A stretch of DNA of 64,000 nt from Solirubrobacterales bacterium (GTDB lineage: Bacteria; Actinomycetota; Thermoleophilia; Solirubrobacterales; 70-9): NCBI GenBank assembly GCA_021155855.1, contig JAJNAZ010000007.1:124001-188000 (forward strand), read 5' to 3'. The translations under genes and the position numbers were made by a program. This document shows, in pieces, positions 11,827-31,694 of the stretch. Each line of letters begins with the position of its first letter. Positions within the stretch are counted from its first letter, which is position 1. The notes below the pieces were generated by a model. It was not told the origin of the DNA and did not search any database. It saw nothing but the letters and a program-made list of their open reading frames with translations.

Positions 11827-11840
11827 TTATCGGTCCAGGA

Positions 11841-11846
11841 TACGCT
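11841..11846 (+). promoter_or_regulatory. -10-like TACGCT before the acyl-CoA dehydrogenase start
   Basis: TACGCT ends 6 nt before the GTG at 11853 and no Shine-Dalgarno is visible, again suggesting a leaderless transcript. Confidence 0.4.
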
Positions 11847-29252: not shown

Positions 29253-30407
29253 TCAAGCGGCAGCCTCCGACACCCCTCGAAGGGGTAGCCGGTAGATGCG
29301 GTACTTCTGCACCACCCTGCCGCCCATGCCCGCCATCGCGCGGTTCATCGGGTCGTTGGTCTCCAGGATCCAGCCCATGTGGCCGCCCAGCGGGCCGTGC
29401 GCCGCGGCGGTCTGCACGTGGCGCTCGTACAACGCCGCGGCCACGCCGAGGTGCTGGTATTCGGACCTGACCCCGAGCGCGAATACGCGCAGGCGGTCGA
29501 TGTAGCGGCGCCGGCGCAAAAAGTGCCACCAGCCGAACGGCAGCAGGCGGCCGTTCATCCGCGCCAGCGCCTGCTCGACGTCGGGCAGGGTGAGCGCCGC
29601 GCCGACCACCTCGCCGTCCTTCTCCGCGATCATCGCCCAGTTCTCGTCCAGGATCGGCTTCAGGCTCTTGGCCTGGAAGGCGACCTCGGCCTCGGTGATC
29701 GGGACGAACCCCCAGTTGTCGCCCCAGGCCTCGTTGTAGACCTCCATGAACCGGGCGACCTCGGCCGCCATCTCGGCCTTGCGCATCGAGCGCAGGACGA
29801 CGCCCTCGTCGCGGGACTTCTGCGCCGCGGCGTGGATCAACGGGTGCAGCTCGGTGCCCTCCTTCAGCCGGCCGAACCACAGCTCCCACATCAGCAGGTC
29901 GGCCTGCTTGGTGAGTCCGAACGCCTCGAGGCGCTGTGCATAGTAGGGCGGATGCCAGGGCTCGAGGATCATCGACGGCTCGTCGTAGCCCTCGATCAGG
30001 ATCCCGCACTCGTCGTTGAGGGTGAAGTCCATCGGTCCCAGCATCCGCTCGCGGCCGCGGGCGCGCAGCCAATCCGCGGCCGCCTCGATCAGCGCCGCGA
30101 ACACGGCCGGGTCGTCCTCAGCCTCGAAAAAGCCGAACATGCCGTCGTTTCCCCCCTGGAACTCGTCCCAGCGCCGATCGATATGGGCGCTGACCCGCCC
30201 GACAACCTCGCCGTCGCGCTCGGCGGTGAACAGCTGCACCTCGGCGTGCTCGAACCACGGGTTCTTGTGCGGGTCGAGGAACCGGCGGCGCTCGAACCGC
30301 AGCGGCGGCACCCACCGGGGGTCGTCGCGCCGCAGGCGGTAGGGAAGCTCGATGAACCGCTTCAGGTCGCGCTTGCCCACGAGTGGCCGGATCGAGACCT
30401 CCCTCAC
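29253..30407 (-). CDS. GNAT-fold acyltransferase, candidate bacterial ceramide synthase
   Basis: 384 aa protein of the YghO-like GNAT group. It begins VREVSIRPLVGKRDLKRFIELPYRL and has the marks DDPRWVPPLRFERRRFLDPHKNPWFEHAE, ERMLGPMDFTLNDECGILIEGYDEPS and, in the C-terminal GNAT half, RVFALGVRSEYQHLGVAAALYE. Single-domain GNATs of similar length include the ceramide synthase of Caulobacter, which N-acylates the long-chain base. It is divergent from an SPT-like enzyme and shares a promoter with it, so lipid N-acylation is a reasonable guess. The GTG at 30407 is 7 nt after TAGGTT. Assignment to the GNAT superfamily is firm, the substrate is inferred. Confidence 0.75.
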   Translation of the reverse strand: MREVSIRPLVGKRDLKRFIELPYRLRRDDPRWVPPLRFERRRFLDPHKNPWFEHAEVQLFTAERDGEVVGRVSAHIDRRWDEFQGGNDGMFGFFEAEDDPAVFAALIEAAADWLRARGRERMLGPMDFTLNDECGILIEGYDEPSMILEPWHPPYYAQRLEAFGLTKQADLLMWELWFGRLKEGTELHPLIHAAAQKSRDEGVVLRSMRKAEMAAEVARFMEVYNEAWGDNWGFVPITEAEVAFQAKSLKPILDENWAMIAEKDGEVVGAALTLPDVEQALARMNGRLLPFGWWHFLRRRRYIDRLRVFALGVRSEYQHLGVAAALYERHVQTAAAHGPLGGHMGWILETNDPMNRAMAGMGGRVVQKYRIYRLPLRGVSEAAA

Positions 30408-30414
30408 CGGGCGG

Positions 30415-30424
30415 AACCTACACT
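30415..30424. promoter_or_regulatory. Symmetric bidirectional -10 element (GNAT / SPT-like)
   Basis: TAGGTT on the minus strand (30420-30415) lies 7 nt before the GTG at 30407. TACACT on the plus strand (30419-30424) lies 7 nt before the ATG at 30432. The two hexamers share the TA at 30419-30420, so the arrangement is symmetric around one dinucleotide. Neither gene has a Shine-Dalgarno. Confidence 0.6.
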
Positions 30425-30431
30425 TCCGGGA

Positions 30432-31694
30432 ATGAGCGAGACCGCACGCGCTCCCGTGGACGTGTTCGAGAAGGCGAGAACCCACGACCGCGCCGAGCAG
30501 CTCGAGATGGCCAAGGAAGCCGATCTTCTGCCGTACTTTCGCGTGCTCACCTCGGAGGCCGGGCCCGTGGTCGAGATGGAGGGCCGCGAGACGATCATGC
30601 TCGGCTCGAACAACTACCTCGGCCTGACCGGGGACCCGCGCGTCAAGCAGGCCGCCCGCGAGGCACTGGAGACCTACGGCACCGGGCTCACCGGGTCGCG
30701 ACTGCTCAACGGCACCACGCCCCTGCACCTCGAGCTCGAGCGCGAGCTCGCCGAGTGGATGGGAGTCGAGGACGCGATCGTGTTCACAACCGGCCATCAG
30801 GCGAACGTCGGCTGCATCGGCACCATCCTCGAGCCGGGCGACACGGTGATCTGCGACTCCGCCGATCACGCCTCGATCCTCGACGGCTGCCGGCTCTCGG
30901 GCGCGAAGCTGCGCCCCTTCCGCCACAACCAGATGCCAAAGCTCGAAAAGATGCTCGTGCGAGCGGCGGACGACGGCGGCGGCGTACTGGTGGTGGTCGA
31001 CGGCGTGTTCTCGATGGAGGGCGACCTCTGTGACCTGCCGGCGATCGTCGAGCTCTGCGGGCGCTACGGCGCCCGGCTGATGGTCGACGAGGCGCACGCC
31101 GTCGGGGTGCTAGGCGCCCGCGGCGCCGGTACCTGCGAGCTGTTCGGGCTCGAGGACCGGGTCGACCTGCGGATGGGGACTTTCTCGAAGAGCATCGCCT
31201 CCTGCGGCGGCTTCATCGCCGGACCGGCGGAGGTGGTCGAGTACCTGCGGATCGCCTCGCGACCGTTCATCTTCACCGCCTCCGCGGTGCCGGCGGCGGT
31301 CGGGGCGGCGCTGGGAGCAGTGCGGATCATCCGTTCCGAGGGCGCCGAGCTGATGGAGCGATTGCTCGACAACGCCCGCTATCTGCGCCGGGGACTTCGC
31401 GACCTCGGCCTGCGCGTGATCGAGCCGGGCAGGCTCCCGGACGGCAGCGAGGCCACCACGCCCGTGGTTCCGGTCGTCGTCGGCGAGGACTGGCAGGCGG
31501 TGCTGCTCTGGAAGGCGCTGTTCGACCGCGGTGTCTACACCAACGTCGCCATCCACCCCGCCGTGCCCCCGGGCGGGGCATTGCTTCGCACCTCGCTGAT
31601 GGCGAGCCATGAGCGCGAGCATCTCGACCGCGCCCTGGCGACCATCAAGGCGACGATCGTCGACTTCGCCGACCTGCCCCGTTCGGCTCCTTGA
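30432..31694 (+). CDS. Alpha-oxoamine synthase, serine palmitoyltransferase-like
   Basis: PLP enzyme condensing an amino acid with an acyl-CoA, 420 aa. The PLP lysine is Lys 253 in GTFSKSIASCGGF, the His/Asp sites are in DSADHASILDG and VDEAHAVGVLG. Several blocks follow serine palmitoyltransferase rather than BioF or KBL: an N-terminal arm before LPYFRVL, FRHN at 163, RPFIFTASAVP near 277, and LLWKALFDRGVYTNVAIHPAVPP. The first committed step of sphingolipid synthesis is therefore the best single guess; 8-amino-7-oxononanoate synthase is the main alternative, but no biotin genes are near. A rho-independent-like terminator follows at 31722. Confidence 0.8.
   Translation: MSETARAPVDVFEKARTHDRAEQLEMAKEADLLPYFRVLTSEAGPVVEMEGRETIMLGSNNYLGLTGDPRVKQAAREALETYGTGLTGSRLLNGTTPLHLELERELAEWMGVEDAIVFTTGHQANVGCIGTILEPGDTVICDSADHASILDGCRLSGAKLRPFRHNQMPKLEKMLVRAADDGGGVLVVVDGVFSMEGDLCDLPAIVELCGRYGARLMVDEAHAVGVLGARGAGTCELFGLEDRVDLRMGTFSKSIASCGGFIAGPAEVVEYLRIASRPFIFTASAVPAAVGAALGAVRIIRSEGAELMERLLDNARYLRRGLRDLGLRVIEPGRLPDGSEATTPVVPVVVGEDWQAVLLWKALFDRGVYTNVAIHPAVPPGGALLRTSLMASHEREHLDRALATIKATIVDFADLPRSAP

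Follow-up and report, generated by a model that had tools for sequence, protein, structure and literature searches.

Bidirectional promoters, defined by divergent transcript starts 7 to 25 bp apart, are established in Escherichia coli and are also found in Salmonella, with overlapping -10 elements (PMC10268837). In the available parts of these reports, a start separation of 18 bp is the commonest, and separations of 10 and 23 bp are also common (PMC12825309; PMC10268837). All five E. coli promoters of this kind that were tested are too weak at the basal level for competition, which is seen once one direction is strengthened (PMC12825309). Leaderless genes with a TANNNT element, the first T of which lies about 12 bp ahead of the start codon (PMC3160421), are established in the Actinobacteria (PMC3160421) and in Deinococcus-Thermus (PMC12340547). 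In Mycobacterium tuberculosis, the divergent genes lysG and lysE have overlapping promoters according to RNA sequencing, and one of the transcripts is leaderless (PMC5648196). The locus described here belongs to a 64,000-nucleotide stretch (the window) of the 2.83 Mb genome of a Solirubrobacterales bacterium (GenBank assembly GCA_021155855.1, contig JAJNAZ010000007.1, positions 124,001 to 188,000), where a BioF-like gene and a GNAT gene diverge from a gap of 24 bp in total that contains two opposite -10-like hexamers overlapping on one TA. With a probability of about 0.8, this gap is a single bidirectional core promoter of the 23-bp geometry, serving two leaderless genes.

The likeness with the E. 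coli and Salmonella promoters lies in the divergent starts from overlapping -10 elements, with a separation that is predicted as ~23 bp here and is also common there (PMC12825309). Here, however, both mRNAs are predicted to be leaderless, so that the promoter would take up the entire intergenic gap and elements further upstream would have to be part of the gene on the other side. The leaderless genes of PMC3160421 and PMC12340547 likewise have TANNNT beside the start; in the source genome, such starts have few Shine-Dalgarno-like motifs and no -35 consensus. A double layout as at this locus is not a subject there, in that neither "divergent" nor "bidirectional" is used in the main text of either paper. 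The divergent actinobacterial genes, the overlapping promoters and a leaderless transcript are shared with lysG-lysE, but that region is controlled by the regulator LysG and a central inverted repeat, and the available parts of the report describe one leaderless transcript (PMC5648196). No description of a double-leaderless, shared-TA layout was recognised in the open-licence literature, as judged from titles and the beginnings of abstracts, and the union of bidirectional -10 elements with leaderless genes, both sides being predicted as leaderless and the promoter filling the gap, is taken to be new.

Layout of the shared core

Positions 30415 to 30424 read AACCTACACT, an instance of the form ANNNTANNNT, and the same decamer is found in 10 loci of the family including this one. 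On the plus strand, TACACT (30419 to 30424), the putative -10 element of the BioF-like gene, lies 7 nt ahead of the ATG at 30432; on the minus strand, TAGGTT (30415 to 30420, reading from 30420 to 30415), the putative -10 element of the GNAT gene, lies 7 nt ahead of the GTG at 30407 to 30405. The TA at 30419 to 30420 belongs to both hexamers and occupies what we take to be positions -12 and -11 of each in the standard -10 numbering. The overlap on one TA and the distance of 7 nt on both sides, as given in a preliminary description of this DNA, are borne out by the sequence of the source genome, whereas the term "palindromic" used there does not apply to the decamer, of which only the form ANNNTANNNT is symmetric.

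The pair TAGGTT/TACACT shows the opposite-strand overlap of -10 elements with key positions in common that characterizes the bidirectional promoters of Warman and Grainger, and TANNNT directly ahead of each start codon, as expected of a leaderless pair. The core has the 23-bp layout, ANNNTANNNT, and not the 18-bp form, in which -7T and -11A are reciprocally paired (TANNNTA). A -35 element was not found by scanning either side of the core. From the spacing between -10 elements and start codons, a leaderless start is predicted at 30431 or 30432 for the plus strand (spacer 30425 to 30431) and at 30408 or 30407 for the minus strand (spacer 30408 to 30414), which places the predicted starts ~23 bp apart. 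The full pattern CAY-N7-ANNNTANNNT-N7-RTG matches once in the window, compared with a mean of 0.01 in 100 dinucleotide shuffles, one of which has one match. The form ANNNTANNNT itself is depleted in the window, with two occurrences versus 12.0 in shuffles; the other one, at 11837 to 11846, is also at a leaderless-type start, with TACGCT 6 nt ahead of a GTG.

Both start codons lead into long coding-like frames (384 and 420 codons) with protein-family matches. The minus-strand gene (29253 to 30407, GTG start) encodes a GNAT-fold protein of 384 aa, with PF00583 covering residues 253 to 339. The plus-strand gene (30432 to 31694, ATG start) encodes a pyridoxal phosphate enzyme of the BioF/Kbl/serine palmitoyltransferase type of 420 aa (PF00155), which reaches no NCBIfam cut-off, so that its substrate is left unspecified; its closest relatives on named contigs are from metagenome-assembled genomes of Solirubrobacterales and of other actinobacterial or Thermoleophilia lineages.

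Candidate leaderless promoters and their conservation in relatives

Candidate promoters of this type are frequent in the source genome. When a simple open reading frame (ORF) caller is applied to 321 kb of it (260 genes, 533 start codons examined), TANNNT ends 6, 7, 8 and 9 nt ahead of a start 16, 14, 16 and 10 times, a total of 56, versus 0 to 5 times at any other single distance. Over 861 kb there are 176 leaderless-type promoters, compared with 30 to 98 for eight permuted hexamers and 18 to 52 for four shifted distance ranges. Upstream of these 176, TTGAC as a -35 element is not enriched (no match, versus 0.36 in shuffles), the less strict TTG is found 9 times versus 5.8 in shuffles, and neither the 56 nor the 176 promoters have an upstream consensus except for a mild preference for C at -1 (0.45). 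The AACC preceding TACACT was considered as part of the plus promoter and rejected, because it is not preferred in either set and is therefore not a general plus-strand element. Shine-Dalgarno-like motifs are present at two of 44 BioF starts of the family and at one of 59 GNAT starts, in agreement with leaderless genes.

The comparison with relatives covers 90 orthologous loci fetched from 101 genomes, divided equally between the source family (f1, 45 loci) and other families of its order (45 loci). Eleven genomes are outside these counts: five belong to f1 and match partially or weakly; of the remaining six, two have no match, two have a partial or weak one and two are intact but were not fetched. 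A GNAT gene is divergent beside BioF in 61 of the 90 loci, and 21 of these 61 are in f1.

On the BioF side, NANNNT is present 6 to 9 nt ahead of the start in 44 of the 45 f1 loci, versus 10 and five of 45 at shifted distances. The situation is different in the sister families f2 to f4, where the GNAT -10 element often lies directly against the BioF ATG (for example ...CCCTACATG) and where TANNNT precedes BioF by 6 to 9 nt in three of the 45 loci outside f1. In 31 of the 40 non-f1 loci with GNAT, a plus-strand TANNNT is found at one place within the GNAT coding region, ~82 bp inside the gene from its start, at codons 25 and 26 (L115-L162, f2-f4); it is present in none of four f4 loci and in none of the 21 f1 loci. 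The third bases of these two codons are A or T in 60% and 82% of cases, whereas at 38 other codons this share varies from 0 to 38% with a median of 10%, and the A/T endings are kept while the amino acids change (Tyr-Arg, His-Ala, His-Ser). This intragenic TANNNT is probably the BioF promoter of the sister families, so that the promoter appears to have moved from the GNAT coding region to the intergenic core.

The same observations would favour the view that a single direction is real, with TAGGTT as the genuine GNAT element and TACACT as a coincidence, or with BioF transcribed from a more distant promoter within the GNAT gene, for which the intragenic element and its codon ends speak in the other families. 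This is considered improbable for f1, where that GNAT region has no TANNNT in any of the 21 loci and where the 44 loci with NANNNT ahead of BioF include 24 without a GNAT gene at that place.

The TA is common to both -10 elements in 10 of the 21 f1 loci with both genes, belonging to the genera g1, g7, g8 and g11. All seven fetched GNAT-bearing loci of g8 and g11, like the two loci of g1, have the identical decamer. Outside f1, a common TA is found in two of 40 loci, both of family f2 (G053, G081), where the different hexamers suggest separate origins of the sharing. Ten aligned loci had been selected for the exact core, which makes the invariance of their core circular, and sets chosen by genus are the fair comparison; in such a set, the seven GNAT-bearing g8 and g11 loci, the 10-bp core is invariant and most spacer positions vary. 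The spacers also vary in length, between 6 and 9 nt, and the exact 7/7 symmetry emphasized in the preliminary description is lost among the ten core-sharing loci, which have 7 to 9 nt on the GNAT side and 6 to 8 nt on the BioF side.

This pattern of constancy also bears on the view that the core is the operator of a regulator, for instance through an inverted repeat CGGAA-N7-TTCCG, the hexamer match being secondary. The two arms do flank the centre in the source genome, CGGAA at 30412 to 30416 and TTCCG at 30424 to 30428, but beyond the core they are not conserved, it is the 10 bp that stay constant among relatives with varying spacers, and the core lacks palindromic symmetry. The operator was rejected because its arms are not conserved, and only a very small likelihood is attached to it.

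On the GNAT side, TANNNT is found 6 to 10 nt ahead of a start in 61 of the 61 loci with the gene, whereas seven permuted hexamers score between 0 and 7 of 61 and TANNNT itself reaches five and 11 of 61 when two shifted ranges of distance are examined. The least credible view, that TAGGTT or TAGGGT is the Shine-Dalgarno-like AGG(G) of the GNAT mRNA instead of a -10 element, draws on.AGG.. being present at 6 to 10 nt in 44 of these 61 loci (15 and 19 at shifted distances) but was rejected because of the variety of the hexamers, which include TAGAGT, TAGCGT, TAAAGT, TACCGT and others that lack AGG, the constant letters being T, A and the last T. Both hexamers of the core look like leaderless -10 elements, the GNAT-side one being the more widely kept and probably the older.

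The GNAT gene is missing beside BioF in seven g11 genomes, as seen from the 0.5 to 1.5 kb upstream that were examined. In all seven the plus hexamer is kept as TANACT, and the A that serves only the minus-strand T at -7 is replaced by G or T, which fits a loss of the minus function. Six of these genomes also have, by eye, an inverted repeat GCAAAC-N5-GTTTGC ~35 to 60 bp upstream of BioF (L083-L085, L087-L089; one mismatch in the L084 copy), which is operator- or terminator-like.

Recurrence of the shared-TA layout

The pattern CAY-N(6-9)-ANNNTANNNT-N(6-9)-RTG is found at 15 sites in the source genome versus two for its reversed control, and 12 of the 15 are between two coding-like ORFs, as defined by thresholds set by the analysis itself; these filtered counts are relied on, the reversed control being possibly biased. 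The 18-bp layout (TANNNTA) is found at 10 sites, the same as its control of 10, and is not enriched; both ORFs are coding-like at three of these 10 sites versus 12 of 15 (Fisher p = 0.03). In contrast with the 18-bp preference of E. coli, the source genome favours the shared TA (23 bp), by 15 to 10 raw sites with controls of 2 and 10, respectively. The adjacent layout ANNNTATANNNT is found at one site, with none for its control. Four other genomes of the order, chosen for their high counts, contain 101 raw sites (23, 19, 33 and 26), and 12 of 15 sites fetched from them pass the ORF filter.

Over 861 kb, the -10 elements of 17 divergent leaderless-type pairs are at most 200 bp apart; three share the TA, one has TANNNTA, and the remaining 13 have spacings of 6 to 121 bp, each different. 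If even spacings over 30 to 125 classes are assumed, three pairs at one named spacing have p = 0.018 to 0.0003. Over the 101 genomes the shared-TA pattern has 1004 matches and its reversed control has 744, or 646 if G029 is left out, the pattern being above the control in 69 genomes, below it in 26 and equal in six, while the 18-bp layout has 447 versus 715. In G029 the reversed control matches 98 times, compared with 0 to 22 times in each of the other 100 genomes, perhaps through a repeat family.

The other shared-TA pairs of the source genome (G000) with both ORFs coding-like are L179, L181, L183, L184 and L187-L193; judged by their N-termini, they presumably include HrcA/peroxiredoxin-like, pterin dehydratase-like, RidA-like/RecG-like, endonuclease III-like and UppP-like genes. 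At the HrcA-like site, TANNNT lies 6 to 10 nt ahead of the HrcA-like start in 29 of 30 loci (L261-L290, fetched from 40 matching genomes), and this leaderless-type promoter is thus conserved despite differences in the sequence beyond it. The form ANNNTANNNT is in register in three of these 30 (L261, L266, L272) and, by eye, is followed by a start codon at 6 to 9 nt only in the source genome (L261), so that the sharing of the TA there looks recent. At the RidA-like site, ANNNTANNNT is in register in three of the seven loci fetched (L291, L292, L295).

Weighing, mechanism and meaning

Several observations weigh against a shared bidirectional core. The -10 hexamers have been identified by pattern and are candidates. 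On the BioF side, strict TANNNT is found at 6 to 9 nt in just 20 of the 45 f1 loci (none at either of the shifted distances), which means that the first-place T is not essential to the f1 BioF promoter; of six permuted patterns at the same distance, five score between 1 and 17 of 45, but ...A.T scores 44, because the hexamers are mostly NANACT. In five g11 loci there is a second hexamer, CACTCT, 6 nt ahead of the start. The seven genomes without GNAT fall into a single clade (Shimodaira-Hasegawa-like approximate likelihood ratio test (SH-aLRT) 83) and count as one event. Six of them still have ACCTA, so that the plus strand may make use of part of the core, or that part may have been inherited unchanged. 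In the 50 f1 genomes the raw shared-TA pattern is weakly above control, 387 versus 378 (280 without an outlier), with 29 genomes above, 16 below and five equal (sign test p = 0.07), and f4 has fewer matches than its control, 43 versus 75. The TA is not shared in 11 of the 21 f1 loci with GNAT; the two -10 elements are 4 to 165 bp apart in 10 of these, and the eleventh has no BioF-side -10 element at the start. The proposal of one 10-bp core for two leaderless-type starts, and the conservation of the TA between relatives that had been set beforehand as its test, are supported by comparison in the GNAT-bearing loci of g1, g8 and g11 but do not extend to these 11.

From the positions, the conservation and the recurrence, all read from sequence, we infer the activity, the exact starts, the exclusion and the order of events as follows. 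An RNA polymerase with a sigma factor of the housekeeping type would engage the one TA in either orientation. If TACACT is read, transcription would start at about 30431 and yield a leaderless BioF-type mRNA; if TAGGTT is read, it would start at about 30408 and yield a leaderless GNAT mRNA. With starts ~23 bp apart, the two polymerase complexes would have to exclude each other, as suggested by the size of the footprint and by the work on E. coli; the preliminary description likewise expects polymerases to compete at the site, although the five E. coli promoters compete little before one side is made stronger (PMC12825309). In evolution, the BioF promoter would have come to adjoin the GNAT -10 element, sharing its TA in part of f1.

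It is conceivable, although on balance doubtful, that a TA shared between leaderless -10 elements is a preferred and selected divergent layout in the Solirubrobacterales, and perhaps in other leaderless-rich, high-GC bacteria, where it would replace the 18-bp layout that prevails in E. coli. The gap would then be a switch between two directions, with one of them active at any moment, and would couple the expression of both genes; at this locus it would have arisen after the BioF promoter left the GNAT coding region, where the candidate promoter of the sister families forces rare codons.

The locus links bidirectional -10 elements with leaderless genes, two subjects that the available parts of the literature handle separately. 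In leaderless-rich genomes, candidate bidirectional promoters can be recognised from sequence alone, because transcripts on either side are expected to begin where the start codons are, and can be counted and traced through evolution without transcript maps. The locus is also proposed as a case of a promoter moving from the coding region of a neighbouring gene into a shared intergenic core.
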